Part shown: piece after piece, positions 2,778 to 13,685 of the stretch
How the letters are laid out: every line of letters starts with the position of its first letter
How positions within the stretch are numbered: the first letter of the stretch is position 1
IMG/VR virus record: IMGVR_UViG_3300047557_002431
Span: 1-20,245 of that record
Strand: one strand, 5' to 3'
Length of the DNA stretch: 20,245 nucleotides
Source of the DNA: a virus
Notes under the pieces: generated by a model
The model's input: only the letters and a program-made list of their open reading frames with translations
What the model was told of the DNA's origin: nothing
Database searches by the model: none
Program-made: the position numbers and the translations under genes

Positions 2778-4884
2778 CAAGGTGGGGAACTTTGAGGGTT
2801 CCCCGCATTGCCCCGACAACTGGGCAGTTTATCTAGGATATGCTATTGGTAAACAGCCGGTTCAGATACAGAGATTCAGCACCCTGACGGAAGCATCCGG
2901 CGGGGTGTTTCTGTTACCGGACTTAACCAAGAAATATATTTTCACCGGCCATAACATCAAGTTCGACCTTCTGTACGCCCGCAAACACAACTGGCGCGTT
3001 GTGGATAGCAGTTCCCGCTCCATGCCCCTGTGGGATTTTCTGATGCAGAATCACGTCTGGGATACGATGGTGGCGGAATATATGTTGCAGGGGCAACGGG
3101 AATCGTTGCCGTCCCTTGACACGGTGGCTGTTCGGTATGGTGGGACTGTCAAGGAATCAATGATTAAAGAGTACTGGCAGGCCGGTATATCCACGGAGAA
3201 CATTGACCCGGAAGTGGTAGAACCATACCTGATTGGGGATGTCACGAACACGCGATTGATTGCGGAAAAACAGATTCAGGCCATGCGCGAGCAGGATATG
3301 CTGCAACTGGCGAAAACTGTTTTCCGCTTTATGTTACTGACAACAGAGATGGAGTACAATGGATTACACGTTAATCTTGAATGGGTATCTGAATACCATA
3401 AAACAGTATTGGCAGAACGCGACACTCTACGTCAAAGCATTATTGATTTTCTGCAAAGTCGTTTGCCGGAGATACCGGAGGGGATTCTCAACCCTGATTC
3501 GCCAGATCACCTTTCTGCTGTCATGTTTGGAGGTGAGATTAAATATCGGATTCAGAAACCCCTGCTGGATGAAGCGGGCAATGAGGTTGTGTTTAAGAGT
3601 GGCCAGAAAGCAGGCCAAGTCCGGCTGAGGCGGGAGGATCACGCTATCCCGGTGAACCTATTCCGTATCAAGCCCTTGCCGCAATGGCAGACAAAGAAGG
3701 GGGTGAGTACCGGTGATGACGTGGTACAGGCGTTGAAGGATCAAGACCCGTTCTTTCAACTCCTGTCTGATTACCGGCGTGTATCTAAGGATTTTTCCAC
3801 CTATGTGGAGAGCAAGAGTGGCAACGCTGTTGCCCAGCTTGTGTTCCCGGACAGCAAGATTCACGCCAATATCAATCACGCCGTTACCGCTACGATGAGG
3901 ACGAGCAGCACGAACCCGAACATTCAGAACCTGACCAACCGGACAGAGTTCAAAAAGGCGTTTACGTCCCGGTTTCGGGATCAAGGAACGCTGCTGGAGG
4001 TGGACTTCTCACAACTAGAGATTGTATGTAAGGCACATTGCACGCAGGACAGGCGATTCATTGAGGATGTTTTGTCGGGTGTGGACTTTCACTGCCTCCG
4101 CGCTGCTTTCGCTGCCGAGTCCCCGGTAATTTTAGGCAGACCAGCATCCTATGAGGAGATTGTTCGGGAGGTGGCAGCAAAGAATGAGGAGTTTGTGCAA
4201 GCTCGGAAACGGGCGAAAGGAATCGGCTTTGCTATGGAGTATGGAGCTGGCCCCACGTCCATCTCGCTGGACACCGGCATACCTGCGTTTGTCGTTAAGC
4301 AGGTGTTTGAAAAGGAAGCAGAACGCTATCCGGCAGTGAAGCATTATTATGAGAATGTGCAGTCTCTTGCCGAGGACAATATCGTAAAAAACACGCATAA
4401 AATCACGCTGTTGCGGGACAGGGTTAAAGCAGTACCTTATCTTGATGACTATAATCAGCCCGTCATTGTTCCGGCCAACACCGCTGTTTATACGTCCCCG
4501 TTTGGGGCAAAGTTGTCGTTCCCGCAGTTCCAGAAGTTCGAGACAAAACAGCTCTCGATCTCACCCACTCATATCAAAAACTACCCCATCCAGCACTTTG
4601 CTACTATGGTCGTAGCAGTTGCCGGGGTTAGGCTTCTGAATGCGATGGTGGAAAACCAGTTCTTTGGCGGCAAGGTTCTTGCCGTGAACACGATTCATGA
4701 CAGCTACCTGTTTGATTTGCATCTGGATATGCTGGAAGATTTTTCCAAGATTGTGAAAGAAGCACTTGAAAATACCCCATTGGACTTGTATAATCTGTTT
4801 AACATCAAGTTTGAGCTGCCCTTGAAGGTTGATCTTGAACATGGTCCTAACTGGAAAGAGTGTAAAATAGAGGTTAAAGTATGA
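2734..4884 (+). CDS. Family A DNA polymerase with 3'-5' exonuclease domain
   Basis: Replicative DNA polymerase of the Pol I/T7 family, 716 residues. The N-terminal proofreading exonuclease shows TFDTETS (D8, E10, ExoI), FTGHNIKFD (ExoII) and YLIGD (ExoIII). The polymerase part shows motif A LLEVDFSQLE (Asp near residue 424), motif B RKRAKGIGFAMEYG (from about 491) and motif C IHDSYLFD (H655 D656 S657). Motif C carries Ser where Pol I and T7 have Glu; I recall HDS as common in phage family A enzymes. The start is uncertain: ATG 2734 (used) has GGTG with a 6-nt spacer, while ATG 2722 adds four residues. The gene overlaps its upstream neighbour and ends in ATGA with the next gene. The length is typical for phage polymerases lacking a 5'-3' exonuclease. 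Confidence 0.95.
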   Translation: MAILVTFDTETSIHNKVGNFEGSPHCPDNWAVYLGYAIGKQPVQIQRFSTLTEASGGVFLLPDLTKKYIFTGHNIKFDLLYARKHNWRVVDSSSRSMPLWDFLMQNHVWDTMVAEYMLQGQRESLPSLDTVAVRYGGTVKESMIKEYWQAGISTENIDPEVVEPYLIGDVTNTRLIAEKQIQAMREQDMLQLAKTVFRFMLLTTEMEYNGLHVNLEWVSEYHKTVLAERDTLRQSIIDFLQSRLPEIPEGILNPDSPDHLSAVMFGGEIKYRIQKPLLDEAGNEVVFKSGQKAGQVRLRREDHAIPVNLFRIKPLPQWQTKKGVSTGDDVVQALKDQDPFFQLLSDYRRVSKDFSTYVESKSGNAVAQLVFPDSKIHANINHAVTATMRTSSTNPNIQNLTNRTEFKKAFTSRFRDQGTLLEVDFSQLEIVCKAHCTQDRRFIEDVLSGVDFHCLRAAFAAESPVILGRPASYEEIVREVAAKNEEFVQARKRAKGIGFAMEYGAGPTSISLDTGIPAFVVKQVFEKEAERYPAVKHYYENVQSLAEDNIVKNTHKITLLRDRVKAVPYLDDYNQPVIVPANTAVYTSPFGAKLSFPQFQKFETKQLSISPTHIKNYPIQHFATMVVAVAGVRLLNAMVENQFFGGKVLAVNTIHDSYLFDLHLDMLEDFSKIVKEALENTPLDLYNLFNIKFELPLKVDLEHGPNWKECKIEVKV

Positions 4885-8021: not shown

Positions 8022-10826
8022 GTGACAACTTTCAATGACATCTCGCAGCGCATTCTGGAAGGGCGGTATCTTCTGGAAGGAGAGACGCCGGAGCAGGCGA
8101 TGCGACGGGCAGCAGATGCGTATGCCAGCAACAAAGAACATGCAGACCGGCTGTATAGCTATGCCATCAAGGGCTGGATGATGTTTGCCAGTCCCGTCCT
8201 GTCCAATGCCGGGAACAAGAAGGGCTTACCTATTTCCTGCTATACCACGGAAATGCAGGATGATCTTTTTGACATCATGAGTACCCTCACAGAAGTGGCG
8301 ACAATGAGCAGCCGTTCCGGCGGCATTGGCATATATGCAGGCAACCTGCGCTCTGACGGCACGATGACGAGCCGGGGGAATGAAAGCACAGGTATGCTCC
8401 CGTTTATCAAGTGTGCTGATCCCTTGATGGTTGCATTCAAGCAAGGGCGCACACGCGGCGGCGCAACCGCTGTTTATCTGGACGTATCACACCCAGAGAT
8501 TGAAGAGTTCGTCAACGCCCGCAAGCCAACTGGCGGCGATCCCCGGCGCAAGTTCCTTGATCTACACCATGCAGTGAATATCCCGGATGCGTTCATGGAA
8601 GCCGTCATTGCTGGGACGGGATGGGAACTGATTGATCCGCACACGAAACAGATCAAGGCCGTTATCCCGGCCCGCAAGCTGTGGGAAGAAATCTTGGCCG
8701 CTCGCATTGAACGTGGCGAGCCATACCTGCATTTCATTGATGAAGCAAACAGGAAGCTCCACCCCAAGTTGCAAGAGAAGGGGCTTGCAATCAATACGAG
8801 TAACTTGTGTGTTGCGCCCGAAACCCCTGTGCTGACCCAGAACGGGTGGGAAAGAATAGATGCGCTTTCTCATAAGGCACTGTCTGTTAATGTGTGGAAT
8901 GGGGAAGAATGGTCAACAGTACTCCCCGTGAAAACCGGCACACAACAGAAACTCGTTCGCGTTCATTTCTCAGACGGCTCTAGTCTGGACTGCACTCCGT
9001 ATCACAAGTTTTATGTGCAGCCCGGTTATAAAGGGGATTCTGTGTGCGTTGAAGCACAAGAACTCAAGTCTGGGGATAAACTGGAGAAGTTTGCTTTGCC
9101 GCAGAATGGGCAGCAATTTAATGAGGGGGAGTTTTCTGATTTCCCTGATGCTTACTCCTTTGGTTTTTACTGCGGGGATGGCACGAAAAATCAGCCTTCG
9201 TCTTGGGTGTACGCTCCAAAAGAAGAAGCGGTCTCAAAACTTCGGGGCACAGTTGCGGAAGACTTTGACAAATATGGGCGTAAACGCTGGGAGCATGGGC
9301 TTTGGGAACACCCTAAGTTTACCGTGCCAATGAAGTACTCCCTGCGGACACAACTTGAATTTCTGGCCGGTTATCTGGATGCAGATGCGTGTGTTGTGGA
9401 AAGCACTCGTTGCCAGAACATTCAAGTAGTTTCTGTGAATTGGAGTTTCCTACACCAAATCAAACTGATGCTGCAACATCTTGGGGTTTCCAGCACCCTA
9501 TGCGCTCGCCGGGAAGCTGGGGAGTTCCAGTTACCTAAGAACGATGGCAGCGGCGAGACTGGAGCGTATGAGTGTCAGAAACTGTGGCTGTTGAACATTA
9601 ACGGGGCTGGCGTTAAGCGTTTGATTGAGCTGGGCCTTCCAGTTGTGCGACTGAAACTTAAAGCGGAGCAACACCCTCAACGCGACGCATCGCGTTTTGT
9701 GTATGTCACATCCGTGGAGGAAACTGGCCGCGTATCTGACACTTATTGTTTCAAAGAGCCTATCCGTGGCCGGGGAGTATTCAACGGCATCCTTACTGGG
9801 AACTGTTCCGAGATTGAACTGGTCACGAACGAAGAACGCTCCGGCGTGTGCTGTCTGTCCAGTCTGAACCTGTATTACTGGGATGAATGGAGAGGCACTC
9901 GGATTGTGGAAGACATGATCGAGATGCTGGATAATGTCATCTCGGTCTTTGTGCGGAAAGTCACAAACCTGACGCCGGAACAACTGGCGGAAGATCGTCC
10001 GCATACTCTGGAGGAGTTCCGGGTACTGGCCTATAGCGAAGGGATGTCCCGGAAGCATGAGCCGCTCTTGAAGGCGGCGTGGTCGGCATATCGGGAACGC
10101 TCCCTTGGACTCGGAACGATGGGCTGGCACAGCCTCTTGATGCGGAAAATGATTCCGTTTGAAAGTGCCCTGTCTGTTGCGCTCACGCACAGCATTTTCC
10201 GGGATATTAGAAGCAGGGCTAAAGCACACAGCCGACACCTTGCAACAGTGCGCGGAGAAGCGCCCGATCTGGTTGGCAGCGGGGATCGGAATGCTAACCT
10301 GCTTGCGATTGCTCCGAACAGCACAAGCTCTCTGATCTGCGGGCAGGTCTCGCCTTCCATTGAGCCAGTCGCCGGGCATATCGTGAAGCAGAATACGCTT
10401 TCCGGAACGCTCTATATCAAGAACCCGGTGCTGGATGATCTCATCCAGAAACGGTGCGAAGACCCGGAAGCAGCGTGGCGTGACATCAACCGGCGGAAGG
10501 GTAGTGTCCAGCACGTTGATTGGCTTACGCAGGACGAGAAGGACGTGTTCAAAACCGCCTATGAGATCGACCAGAATTGGGTGATTGAGCAGGCGGCAGC
10601 CCGTCAGAATTATATCTGTCAGGCGCAGAGCGTGAACACCTTCTTCCGGCCCGACGCCAACAACACGATTGACAAGTCTTATGTTTCCCGCGTTCATATC
10701 AATGCGTGGAAAAAGAAGCTGAAGACGCTGTATTATTGCCGGACTGACACCAAGGCGGAAGACGGGGAAGCCTTTGCTATGCCGGTTAAGAAAAGCAGTG
10801 AAGACTGCCTGTCTTGCCAAGGTTGA
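8022..10826 (+). CDS. nrdA: Ribonucleotide reductase class I large (alpha) subunit, containing an intein
   Basis: 934-residue precursor. Removing the 332-residue intein leaves a 602-residue subunit that reduces ribonucleotides to deoxyribonucleotides. Extein motifs: ISCYTTE (C73, redox cysteine); SNL|CSEIEL (C595 of the precursor, the thiyl-radical cysteine equivalent to E. coli C439, with its neighbouring N and E); GVCCLSSLNL (C610/C611, partner cysteine); NSTSSLICGQVSPSIEP; KTLYYCRT (Y904-Y905, the radical-transfer tyrosine pair); and a C-terminal CLSCQG redox tail. There is no N-terminal ATP-cone, since the protein begins near the catalytic domain; this suggests absent or reduced dATP activity control. 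The start is GTG 8022, with CGGAG at 8011-8015. Terminators flank it on both sides. Its partner small subunit is at 13690. Confidence 0.95.
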   Translation: MTTFNDISQRILEGRYLLEGETPEQAMRRAADAYASNKEHADRLYSYAIKGWMMFASPVLSNAGNKKGLPISCYTTEMQDDLFDIMSTLTEVATMSSRSGGIGIYAGNLRSDGTMTSRGNESTGMLPFIKCADPLMVAFKQGRTRGGATAVYLDVSHPEIEEFVNARKPTGGDPRRKFLDLHHAVNIPDAFMEAVIAGTGWELIDPHTKQIKAVIPARKLWEEILAARIERGEPYLHFIDEANRKLHPKLQEKGLAINTSNLCVAPETPVLTQNGWERIDALSHKALSVNVWNGEEWSTVLPVKTGTQQKLVRVHFSDGSSLDCTPYHKFYVQPGYKGDSVCVEAQELKSGDKLEKFALPQNGQQFNEGEFSDFPDAYSFGFYCGDGTKNQPSSWVYAPKEEAVSKLRGTVAEDFDKYGRKRWEHGLWEHPKFTVPMKYSLRTQLEFLAGYLDADACVVESTRCQNIQVVSVNWSFLHQIKLMLQHLGVSSTLCARREAGEFQLPKNDGSGETGAYECQKLWLLNINGAGVKRLIELGLPVVRLKLKAEQHPQRDASRFVYVTSVEETGRVSDTYCFKEPIRGRGVFNGILTGNCSEIELVTNEERSGVCCLSSLNLYYWDEWRGTRIVEDMIEMLDNVISVFVRKVTNLTPEQLAEDRPHTLEEFRVLAYSEGMSRKHEPLLKAAWSAYRERSLGLGTMGWHSLLMRKMIPFESALSVALTHSIFRDIRSRAKAHSRHLATVRGEAPDLVGSGDRNANLLAIAPNSTSSLICGQVSPSIEPVAGHIVKQNTLSGTLYIKNPVLDDLIQKRCEDPEAAWRDINRRKGSVQHVDWLTQDEKDVFKTAYEIDQNWVIEQAAARQNYICQAQSVNTFFRPDANNTIDKSYVSRVHINAWKKKLKTLYYCRTDTKAEDGEAFAMPVKKSSEDCLSCQG
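8808..9803 (+). other. LAGLIDADG intein within the reductase large subunit
   Basis: 332 residues in frame within the reductase. Block A begins with Cys (CVAPETPVLTQNGW). Block B is DGSSLDCTPYHKFYV with the TxxH motif. Two LAGLIDADG homing-endonuclease motifs are YSFGFYCGDGT and LEFLAGYLDADA. The C-terminal blocks are VSDTYCFKEP and GVFNGILTGN, ending in Asn, with Cys as the first C-extein residue. The penultimate residue is Gly rather than the common His; I recall a similar LTGQ/LTGN ending in other reductase inteins. Removing it rejoins SNL to CSEIEL, a perfect reductase active-site motif. Both splicing termini and the endonuclease acidic residues (D of CGDG, D of LDAD) are intact, so both activities are plausible. 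Confidence 0.93.
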
Positions 10827-10890: not shown

Positions 10891-12069
10891 ATGGATTACC
10901 AGCTCTATAATGATGATTGTCTGAATGCCCTGAAATCCATGCCGGAAAACAGCGTGGATTCAGTAGTCACTGATCCGCCCTACGGCCTGTCATTTATGGG
11001 CCGGAAATGGGACTATGATGTCCCCGGCGTTGAGATATGGGCAGAGTGCCTGCGTGTATTAAAGCCGGGCGGGTATTTACTGGCGTTTGCTGGAACACGG
11101 ACGCAGCATCACATGGCGGTTAAGATTGAGGATGCCGGGTTTGAAATTAGGGATGTGATTGCGTGGGTTTATGGATCGGGATTCCCGAAGTCGCTGGATG
11201 TGAGTAAGGCGATTGATAAGGCTGCGGGTGCTGAAAGGGGAAAAGTGCGAGTCAAGCCGCGCCCTGAAACTAGCGGGACTATGGCAGGGGCCAGCGATAC
11301 GAGACCGTGGATCGAAAAATCGCGGGCGCTTGGGTATCACGAAGTTGATGGAAAAGAGCCGGTAACAAAAGCCGCCCACCAATGGCAAGGGTGGGGCACC
11401 GCGCTCAAGCCCGCCTTGGAACCAGTAACGGTTGCCCGCAAGCCTCTTATCGGAACAGTGGCAGCGAATGTGCTGGAGTACGGAACCGGGGCAATCAATA
11501 TTGATGGTTGCAGGATTCCCCGCGATCCGGATGATGTCAGTGGTTGGAGTGCTTCCGGGAGTAATGAATCTGAAAACCGTTCAATGAGCGGAAAGAACTA
11601 CAACAGAGCGCCAAAGCCGGATGCAGATGGACGCTGGCCCGCCAACTTTATTCACGACAACAGCGACGCAGTGACTGCCTTGTTAGGGGATGCATCCCGC
11701 TTTTTTTACTGCGCCAAGGCCAGTAAGCGGGATCGGGATGAGGGGCTGGAGGGGTTTGAGGTTAAACGCACAGGCGGGATGGAGGCAACCGCAGATGGGC
11801 GTATGCTTACCGGCAGCGGCAATGAAAGAACCACAGCCCGCGCCAACGTACACCCCACCGTCAAGCCTACCGACCTGATGCGCTACCTCTGCCGCCTTGT
11901 CACCCAGCCCGGCGGTATCGTTCTCGATCCTTTTATGGGTTCCGGCAGCACTGGCAAGGCTGCGATTCTGGAAGGGTTCCGGTTTATCGGTATTGAACGG
12001 GAGCCGGAGTATTTTCGGCTTGCGGAAGCAAGGATAAAACACGCCGCCGAAAAAACCTCTTGCCCCTAA
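10891..12069 (+). CDS. DNA adenine-N6 / cytosine-N4 methyltransferase (beta-class order)
   Basis: 392-residue SAM-dependent exocyclic-amino methyltransferase. The catalytic motif IV TDPPYG (D28-G32) comes near the N-terminus. SAM-binding motif I LDPFMGSGSTGKAA (about 345-358) is near the C-terminus, preceded by HPTVKP (about 321). This is the order of beta-class enzymes such as HinfI- and CcrM-type. The DPPY form is compatible with either N6-adenine or N4-cytosine. A long central region (about 120-320) would hold target recognition. ATG 10891 is chosen; GAGGA (10875-10879) is 11 nt away, somewhat long. The frame is open upstream into nrdA but crosses a terminator, so the longer start is rejected. 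With the C5 enzyme at 694 it gives the phage two chemically distinct modification activities. No cognate endonuclease gene is seen. Confidence 0.92.
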   Translation: MDYQLYNDDCLNALKSMPENSVDSVVTDPPYGLSFMGRKWDYDVPGVEIWAECLRVLKPGGYLLAFAGTRTQHHMAVKIEDAGFEIRDVIAWVYGSGFPKSLDVSKAIDKAAGAERGKVRVKPRPETSGTMAGASDTRPWIEKSRALGYHEVDGKEPVTKAAHQWQGWGTALKPALEPVTVARKPLIGTVAANVLEYGTGAINIDGCRIPRDPDDVSGWSASGSNESENRSMSGKNYNRAPKPDADGRWPANFIHDNSDAVTALLGDASRFFYCAKASKRDRDEGLEGFEVKRTGGMEATADGRMLTGSGNERTTARANVHPTVKPTDLMRYLCRLVTQPGGIVLDPFMGSGSTGKAAILEGFRFIGIEREPEYFRLAEARIKHAAEKTSCP

Positions 12070-12104: not shown

Positions 12105-12123
12105 GCCGGGAGCGTATCCCGGC
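12105..12123 (+). other. GC-rich hairpin in the leader of the hexapeptide-repeat gene
   Basis: GCCGGGA (12105-12111) and TCCCGGC (12117-12123) form a 7-bp stem with a GCGTA loop. No T-run follows, so it is not a standard terminator. It sits 24 nt before the ATG at 12148 and could affect mRNA stability or translation. Part of it recurs imperfectly after the gene (12569-12590). Confidence 0.4.
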
Positions 12124-12147: not shown

Positions 12148-12567
12148 ATGACTGACAAAAAATTTGAACTAACCGGAATCACAATCGAGCACGAGGGCAA
12201 GACTCTATACCGCATCAAAGCATTGCGCGATTTTGCCAACGTGAAAGCAGGAGATTTAGGGGGGTATCTCGAAAAAGAATCCAATCTCAGTCACGAGGGC
12301 GATGCGTGGGTGTTTGGCGATGCGTGGGTGTATGACAATGCGTGGGTGTATGACAATGCGCGGGTGTATGACAATGCGCGGGTTTGTGACGATGCGTGGG
12401 TATATGGCGATGCGTGGGTATATGGCGATGCGTGGGTGTATGGCGATGCGCAAGTGTGTAACAATGCGCAGGTTTTTGGCAATGCGCAGGTGTTTGGCAA
12501 TGCGTGGGTGTTTAGCGATGCGCAGGTGTTTGGCAATGCGTGGGTGTCTGGCGATTTAACTAGATGA
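12148..12567 (+). CDS. Hexapeptide-repeat (left-handed beta-helix) protein
   Basis: 139 residues. The N-terminal ~45 residues form a small domain (FELTGITIEHEGKTLYRIKA, then RDFANVKAGDLGGYLE), familiar from phage and prophage proteins. It is followed by about 14 tandem six-residue repeats of the form (G/D)(D/N)A(W/R/Q)V(Y/F/C) at 12298-12549. Such repeats fold into a stacked beta-helix. Function is unknown; related proteins occur widely in phages, and no enzyme active site is present. The start ATG 12148 has AAGGGGA at 12134-12140 with a 7-nt spacer. The repeats are nearly identical at the DNA level, so copy number may vary by slippage. It is flanked by a short imperfect direct repeat and followed by the structured RNA candidate. 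Confidence 0.8.
   Translation: MTDKKFELTGITIEHEGKTLYRIKALRDFANVKAGDLGGYLEKESNLSHEGDAWVFGDAWVYDNAWVYDNARVYDNARVCDDAWVYGDAWVYGDAWVYGDAQVCNNAQVFGNAQVFGNAWVFSDAQVFGNAWVSGDLTR
12298..12549 (+). repeat. 18-bp tandem repeat array coding the hexapeptides
   Basis: About 14 copies of an 18-bp unit approximating GCGATGCGTGGGTGTATG, always in frame. Neighbouring copies differ by a few bases, consistent with expansion by duplication. It is coding, with no unique spacers, so it is not a CRISPR array. Confidence 0.88.
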
Positions 12568-13070
12568 TCGCCCGAAGCGCATCCCGGAAACCGCTCGATT
12601 GAAGTATTGCGATGGTTTAAGGTCTGGTCGTTACCAGTCTGACAAAAACGGCGTCACAAGTAGCAATACTTCAATGGTGCGGCTAGCGGCAGAGGATGTC
12701 ACGCTCTTCTTGGTTCCGCGAAAAACGGGTAGGTGTGATGTTGCCCGTCACAAACCGCCGCACCAACAGGCAGTTAGGTATGCTTAGCGCAGCAAACCTG
12801 CCGTGAGCCGTGGACACGCTAAATCCCACGGGTAGCTATAGGCGCGGCGTAATGGCGATACGCTGATGAGGGGACGGCAGGGTTAGCCCTCAAAGAACAA
12901 AAAAATCCCGCACACCGCTCTTTGTGAGCACACTTGATGGGGTTAGAAGCGATGAAACCCGGCGACAGAAACTCGCTCCTGTGTGCTCTCATGGTGCGGT
13001 AAATAATCCCGTCATTGAAGGAGGGTAATCCGACAATGACGGTTCGCACCAACCAACACACAAAGAGGAT
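12568..13070 (+). ncRNA. Candidate large structured non-coding RNA (~500 nt)
   Basis: No credible gene fits this gap, but long complementary segments fill it. Perfect helices on the + strand: 12598-12610/12663-12675 (13 bp); 12676-12683/12757-12764 (8 bp); 12784-12789/12817-12822 and 12808-12813/12826-12831 (6 bp each, mutually pseudoknotted); 12769-12773/12798-12802; 12891-12896/12919-12924; 12926-12933/12981-12988 (8 bp) enclosing 12940-12944/12956-12960; 13009-13017/13034-13042 (9 bp) inside 12992-12998/13045-13051 (7 bp). The closing pair TGGTGCG / CGCACCA is used twice. The size and nested, pseudoknotted layout recall large ornate phage RNAs such as GOLLD and ROOL, but I cannot match it to either. 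Boundaries and strand are inferred from position between + strand genes. A riboswitch, degenerate ribozyme/intron or replication-origin structure is also possible. Confidence 0.55.
12674..13053. repeat. Repeated stem halves ATGGTGCGG and CGCACCAAC
   Basis: ATGGTGCGG occurs at 12674-12682 and 12991-12999. Its complement-bearing partner CGCACCAAC occurs at 12759-12767 and 13045-13053. Each pair can close a domain of the putative RNA (12675-12765 and 12992-13051), and the halves could also pair across domains. Confidence 0.6.
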
Positions 13071-13072
13071 TT

Positions 13073-13156
13073 ATGTCTGGCGGAGCTTTGGACTACCTCT
13101 GCGGAAGCAGCAGCGGCATCGCTGCAAGACGCCATTAAGTTAGCGCGAGAAAGCTG
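13073..13156 (+). pseudogene. Possible frameshifted remnant of a small MSGG-type phage gene
   Basis: An ATG at 13073 preceded by AGAGGA begins MSGGALDYLCG and stops at 13138 after 21 residues. I recall MSGGxxDY openings from small phage proteins. In the +1 frame the same stretch reads SAEAAAASLQDAIKLARES and stops at 13155-13157, overlapping the next start as TGATG. A single extra or missing base near 13097 would join the two. It may therefore be a broken gene, a sequencing error or a short leader peptide. Confidence 0.3.
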
Positions 13157-13483
13157 ATGCTGGAAACACTCAAGTGGGATTATGAAATCAATACCGACGT
13201 GCAGCCTATTCCGGCGACAATCAGCTTTTATCTGGAGAAAAGGCCTGTCGCTCTGCGCGGTGCTTTCTGCCTTACACACCATTCCGATGGGAGCAGGTGG
13301 ATATGGGCAGTGAATAGCGACACCTGGTGCCCATATAAAACCATTCAACTTGCCAAAGACGATCTAATTAGGCTACTTGAAAAGGACGGATTCGGTAATG
13401 TCTTGGACATTGCCGGTGCAATAGACAGGATAGCAAATGGCGAACATAATCCAATTCAGAACACACGACGAGCAGCACCTTGA
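13157..13483 (+). CDS. Hypothetical protein
   Basis: 108 residues, family not recognised. It contains several aromatic residues (WDYEI, FYLEK, SRWIWAVNSDTWCPY), suggesting a compact beta-containing domain, then a helical C-terminus. No membrane segment or catalytic motif was seen. ATG 13157 overlaps an upstream stop as TGATG, with a weak GAGAAAG just before it. The 3' end overlaps the following gene by 47 nt. It lies between the RNA candidate and the reductase small subunit, so it is likely on the nrdB transcript. No function is proposed. Confidence 0.65.
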   Translation: MLETLKWDYEINTDVQPIPATISFYLEKRPVALRGAFCLTHHSDGSRWIWAVNSDTWCPYKTIQLAKDDLIRLLEKDGFGNVLDIAGAIDRIANGEHNPIQNTRRAAP

Positions 13484-13685
13484 CGAGATCAGGCGGGATA
13501 TGCTCACTTACGTTGAGGAACTCATTCCCCGGATTGAGGCCGGGGAAATCAAGGGGATGGTTATCGGACTTGACCGGACAGATGGACATTGTGAAACACT
13601 ATGGTCAGGGATGGGAAGACGGGACTTGCATTATATCCTGTCGTTAATGAAACATACTTACGAACGGCGATGCTTTGAGGAGTGA
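13437..13685 (+). CDS. Hypothetical protein
   Basis: 82 residues: a helical N-terminal half (DEQHLDEIRRDMLTYVEELI), then a short strand-like stretch (IKGMVIGLDRTDG) and a C-terminal helix. I do not recognise the family with confidence. AGGA at 13425-13428 lies about 6-8 nt before ATG 13437. It ends 5 nt before the reductase small-subunit ATG, and the Shine-Dalgarno of nrdB is inside its last codons, implying tight coupling with nrdB. It could serve as an accessory factor, but no motif supports this. Confidence 0.65.
   Translation: MANIIQFRTHDEQHLDEIRRDMLTYVEELIPRIEAGEIKGMVIGLDRTDGHCETLWSGMGRRDLHYILSLMKHTYERRCFEE

Follow-up and report, generated by a model that had tools for sequence, protein, structure and literature searches.

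A virus record from IMG/VR (the window, i.e., the whole stretch of 20,245 bases analyzed here) carries between 12568 and 13070 a non-coding region that contains far more long helices than expected by chance. Our best overall explanation, to which we assign a probability of roughly 0.55, is that this region would encode a structured phage non-coding RNA (ncRNA) that is made from the + strand, consists of tandem exchangeable units, and acts in trans. We place the whole RNA array at 12571 to 13051 on the + strand (approximate limits; roughly 480 bases), based on the lack of a match in Rfam, the excess of long helices, and homologous units in the phage contigs L002, L038, L025, and L149. The initial annotation had proposed one large structured RNA. 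The structured ncRNA and its interleaved helices hold, but we find an array of separable units instead of a single large fold, given that single-unit versions of about 170 to 280 nucleotides (nt) exist in L149 and L025 and that units differ between very close phages.

The genes around the array lie on the + strand of the window and include those for DNA polymerase A, for NrdA with an intein-like insert, for an N6/N4 methylase (ending at 12069), and for a beta-solenoid repeat protein (12148 to 12567), with nrdB, identified via its relatives, starting at about 13687. As initially annotated, the interval from 12568 to about 13070 lacks a plausible gene: the open reading frames that start and end inside 12568 to 13070 encode at most 80 amino acids, no reading frame is conserved, and the conserved module of L025 has stops in all six frames. 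Neither 13157 to 13483 nor 13437 to 13685 matched Pfam or PHROG, no toxin was recognized among the neighboring proteins scanned with these two collections, and no tRNA or tmRNA was found in the window by ARAGORN or Rfam. The insert in nrdA (8809 to 9809) contains a LAGLIDADG domain; L149, a close relative, has no such insert, and that of L002 is much shorter. The beta-solenoid gene, of the YdcK type, is made of near-exact 18-base repeats and is probably prone to expand and contract.

When compared with 200 dinucleotide shuffles, the region 12568 to 13070 contains five perfect helices of at least 8 bp versus 0.49 expected (0/200 shuffles reach five), 15 of at least 6 bp versus 8.4 expected (4/200 shuffles reach 15), and one of 13 bp (0/200 shuffles), while the 42 helices of at least 5 bp are near the chance expectation of 34.6. 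The count of at least ten perfect helices of 5 to 13 bp made at first sight is right, yet the excess over chance ascribed to them resides in the long helices, those of 5 bp being at chance level. The folding energy of the window is modestly low (z = −2.46 on the + strand and −3.36 on the − strand); among the homologues it is lower in L149 (z = −4.66) and L002 (z = −4.83), and the L025 unit folds no better than its shuffles (z = −0.78).

On the + strand of the window, the array starts with a small GC-rich hairpin, CCCGAAGCGCATCCCGG (12571 to 12587), that precedes unit 1, and the same hairpin lies directly 5′ of the single unit in L149. Hairpins of this kind (GCCGGGAGCGTATCCCGGC type) are found before genes and RNA units alike, at 12105 to 12123 and 12571 to 12587 in the window, at 4127 to 4153 in L038, and at 8640 to 8665 in L149. 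Unit 1 opens with the upstream strand CCGCTCGA (12591 to 12598), which can pair with TGGTGCGG at 6/8 positions, followed by a domain X (12599 to 12674) that we call module A and that is conserved in four contigs. Its outer stem (12599-12609/12664-12674) falls within a 13-bp arm pair noted before (12598-12610/12663-12675), which is exact in the sequence, and it contains two hairpins (12624-12627/12634-12637 and 12640-12643/12653-12656) connected by a loop-loop helix (12628-12632/12647-12651), all conserved in the four contigs. The P stem of unit 1 (12675 to 12765), formed by TGGTGCGG (12675 to 12682) and CCGCACCA (12758 to 12765), encloses domain B, with hairpins at 12692-12696/12705-12709 and 12725-12729/12744-12748 and a loop-loop helix at 12698-12702/12735-12739, for which there is a homologous domain in L002. 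A different pseudoknot had been claimed here, 12725-12729/12744-12747 with 12734-12738/12749-12752; its letters do pair (ACGGG/CCCGT and TGTGA/TCACA), in helices one base longer than described, but since L002 pairs the same loop with an earlier loop, the interaction of 12698-12702 with 12735-12739 appears better supported. The middle domain (12768 to 12907) comprises a stem (12797-12804/12874-12881) and the other claimed pseudoknot, which proved exact, 12784-12789/12817-12822 (TTAGCG/CGCTAA) with 12808-12813/12826-12831 (CCGTGG/CCACGG); no homologue of this domain was found, and the window sequence is its sole support. The last unit consists of the upstream strand CCGCTCTT (12915 to 12922), a domain X whose stem is 12923-12933/12981-12991, and a P stem (12992 to 13051) formed by TGGTGCGG (12992 to 12999) and TCGCACCA (13044 to 13051) around an inner stem (13009-13017/13034-13042), with an orthologue in L149.

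Four further phage contigs carry homologous units (L046/L002, L047/L038, L025, and L149). Among relatives collected by an nrdB search, window positions 12599 to 12736, or part of them, recur downstream of nrdB in L002/L046, upstream of it in L038/L047, and on the opposite strand beyond nrdB in L025. In three pattern scans of IMG/VR, these contigs (L002, L038, and L025) came up again together with unrelated matches, and a covariance model of module A found no further units in the nrdB relatives. A polA search added L149, which is about 90% identical to the window and carries a strongly diverged copy (E of about 5e−6); L149 apart, further nrdB and polA relatives yielded no additional units. There was no convincing match in bacterial genomes, phage records, or plasmids: the seven matches from the genome collection were rejected, all being apparently coding chance matches, and those from phage and plasmid records were short and at chance level.

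Comparison of the five contigs reveals a common unit plan, CCGYNC - hairpin domain X - TGGTGCGG - domain B - CCGCACCA, in which CCGTACCA, CCGTGCCA, or TCGCACCA can replace CCGCACCA as the closing strand. X ends exactly where TGGTGCGG starts in all eight units examined; a further unit, the first one of L038, has no clear X. Within an array, no alignment between the domains is seen outside the joints. Across nine units, the P stem contains 66 Watson-Crick, 6 G-T, and 0 A-C cells, which suggests that the + strand rather than its complement folds; as TGGTGCGG belonged to the search patterns, its invariance is partly by design, while the variation of the other P strand is less constrained. The eight bases 5′ of X also pair with TGGTGCGG, at 5 to 7 of the 8 positions in 8/8 units and mostly at the GCGG end, compared with 11% of background 8-mers that reach 6 pairs. 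Two partners are available to TGGTGCGG, an imperfect one upstream and a perfect one downstream, and given that these pairings are mutually exclusive, the joint may be bistable and could plausibly exchange strands while the RNA is transcribed. In such co-transcriptional folding, the perfect downstream pairing would replace the imperfect upstream one.

In matched comparisons between phages, identity amounts to 86 to 95% for the 84-nt module A and to 60 to 80% for nrdB, suggesting either strong constraint on the module or its movement between phages. It sits at differing positions relative to nrdB, and it forms the 5′ unit in the window but lies within the last unit in L002 and L038, where the 3′ parts differ. 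In four sequences, 95/96 cells of the module A pairs are standard versus 30 to 57% when the partner is slid, and two pairs are altered on both sides. The initial annotation had named covarying base pairs as its expected support; pairs do change in a pair-preserving manner, but weakly and in few sequences, with 19/500 shuffles reaching the covariation score of module A. Given the small number of homologues (five contigs only), we take this thin covariation as supportive of the structure and not as conclusive. Domain B of unit 1 is 76% identical to its homologue in L002 and shares with it the two hairpins and the loop-loop helix in the same register, a C-G pair of this helix in one being G-C in the other. 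The pairing of stem X likewise persists despite sequence change among units.

Close relatives differ both in the number of units and in X, whereas joints and stems persist. Where the window has two units, the middle domain, and the solenoid gene, L149 has one unit. The domain B of this unit and that of the last window unit are orthologous (95% identity over 13016 to 13100; the L149 domain has about 32 additional nt inside), but the X of L149 differs in sequence and forms a perfect 11-bp stem. The comparison shows that close relatives have exchanged, gained, and lost domains. This natural swap between phages that are about 90% identical reveals which parts are exchangeable and which are fixed, and makes structure and function directly testable. 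A unit can also be missing altogether, as in L017, L064, and L065, whose NrdB proteins are 87 to 90% identical to that of L025 and which have no unit in the same gap. L065 retains the remnant CCCGCACCAATTTTTT: at 3560 to 4345 of this contig, the 3′ end of thyX is duplicated beside an inserted gene and followed by CCCGCACCAATTTTTT, which resembles the 3′ terminus of an RNA unit that was lost. The nrdB-thyX gap that holds the RNA unit in L025 is occupied in these three contigs by a different conserved structured element, CCCCGAAGGCTGGGG ... GCCCGGTTGGCGTTAGAGCCGGGC (L064, 5565 to 5680; L065, 4230 to 4345; L017, 1690 to 1830 on the minus strand).

No Rfam covariance model matched the window at its gathering score, and an E-value limit of 10 added just two implausible weak matches; in the homologous arrays, nothing credible except tRNA itself was detected even at relaxed E-values. 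This agrees with the initial annotation, in which the RNA could not be matched to GOLLD or ROOL: the GOLLD model failed in the window and homologues, relaxed E-values included, as did the ROOL model, and no Rfam model of a self-splicing intron matched. In the collection of papers that we searched for RNAs of this kind, only reports of the GOLLD/ROOL type came up. GOLLD and ROOL are structured phage RNAs of unknown function that have kissing loops and lie near tRNA genes (PMC12286853). GOLLD, a giant, ornate RNA found in phages and prophages, is often near tRNA genes and has kissing loops (PMC12286853). It resembles the present arrays in that the one of L038 contains a tRNA, but many GOLLD RNAs exceed 800 nt and GOLLD combines a universally conserved 3′ region with a less conserved 5′ region, whereas the RNAs described here have 170 to 490 nt, exchangeable units, and differing 3′ parts. 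ROOL (rumen-originating ornate large RNA), often located near tRNA islands, shares with them the pseudoknots and the kissing loops (PMC12286853), but differs from an array that is built of units with swapped domains and fails the ROOL covariance model. Riboswitch and T-box leaders are similar in the mutually exclusive pairings of one strand, yet they gave no Rfam match, and the gene adjoining the array varies from phage to phage, the one in the window being broken. Tandem pseudoknotted RNA units are also known from phages and plasmids as the antitoxin RNAs of type III toxin-antitoxin systems (ToxI type); the units here are longer and are not near-identical tandem repeats. We would call this RNA a new class within the known kind "structured phage ncRNA"; it fails the covariance models of GOLLD and ROOL, is constructed from exchangeable units, and is comparable to them in general kind only, without being a member of either.

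The context of the arrays bears on how they might act. tRNA genes adjoin them in two relatives, with tRNA-Tyr in L002 and, inside the array itself, tRNA-Phe in L038, and are missing from the window, L001, and L025. In L002, a promoter-like site is followed by tRNA-Tyr, a short stretch, the array, a 13-pair terminator, and a new promoter-like site. This order makes a trans-acting stable RNA, probably produced together with the phage tRNAs, the most likely mode of action. It also speaks against the alternative that survives best, although we regard it as unlikely, namely, that the units are structured spacers between cistrons and that this hairpin-rich intergenic RNA only insulates, processes, or stabilizes phage mRNA. 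Simple GC-rich hairpins do precede genes in the same phages (12105 to 12123 in the window; L149), the nrdB-thyX gap holds a different structured element in L017, L064, and L065, and no promoter was detected at the window's own array, all of which would suit a spacer. However, a near-identical module A despite 60% identical nrdB, together with loop-loop helices, exceeds what a spacer needs, and the L002 array is its own transcription unit with tRNA and terminator.

Control of the downstream gene seems less likely than action in trans, too. A cis-acting leader, in which the bistable TGGTGCGG joint would serve as a switch or attenuator of the gene just downstream (here a small gene starting MSGG), could explain why one strand has two mutually exclusive pairings and why, in the window and in L149, the last stem lies shortly 5′ of an ATG with its ribosome-binding site. 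Yet this gene (13073 to 13160, MSGGALDY...), whose frame is longer in L149 and L002, is shortened by an internal deletion and a frameshift, its first codons being fused out of frame to its last part, whereas the adjoining RNA unit is conserved and intact. In addition, the terminator and new promoter-like site separate array and gene in L002, and L038 and L025 have other genes downstream, so that we consider a leader rather unlikely. That the hairpins act at the DNA level, as single-stranded sites for a recombinase or transposase that moves the units as cassettes, would account for the varying number and position of units, for their patchy presence, and for the remnant in L065; it is nevertheless improbable, as no mobility gene was recognized in the neighborhood, kissing loops and the L002 terminator fit an RNA, and known hairpin recombination sites are far shorter and less ornate than the array domains. 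Chance structure or decayed coding sequence, with which helices of 5 bp at chance level and a window fold z-score of only −2.5 would agree, is very improbable in view of the long-helix excess, the conserved homologues, and the stops in all frames of L025.

For the trans-acting RNA, the fast exchange of domains suggests that units could bind or sequester a partner that varies between hosts, e.g., a host or defense protein or RNA, a guess that, taken by itself, is less likely than not. Within the window, the RNA has one candidate antisense target, a 12-mer, which is at chance level. Points that weigh against the trans-acting RNA are the small number of homologues with their thin covariation, the L025 unit that folds no better than its shuffles, and the absence of a detected promoter or terminator at the window's own array. 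A fuller version, somewhat unlikely as a whole, would be a new class of cassette array with kissing-loop modules and a bistable three-strand joint, expressed with phage tRNAs, whose modules bind or mimic varying host targets and are for this reason exchanged quickly between close phages; if true, the array would be an RNA-based counter-defense or host-takeover device. GOLLD and ROOL being known but unexplained large structured phage RNAs, the array represents a second, unrelated, modular design and a smaller system to probe, with one unit of about 170 to 280 nt and adjoining tRNA genes in two relatives.

Additionally, the pattern CACAAGTAGCA...TGGTGCGG retrieved a Firmicutes-type prophage RNA (L048, L050, L051, L053, and L054), which we rejected as a distant relative: TGGTGCGG does not occupy one and the same alignment position in L048 and L053, this RNA is missed by the module A model, and with a bridging pattern we obtained nothing but further members of the family and chance matches that seem to be coding. 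It is a conserved, Rfam-negative, non-coding element of prophage-like contigs (also L136) in its own right. In L048 (1790 to 2180), it lies directly upstream of an integrase-like gene, followed by HNH and terminase-like genes, and the element contains an invariant motif, CACAAGTAGCAAGTAG.
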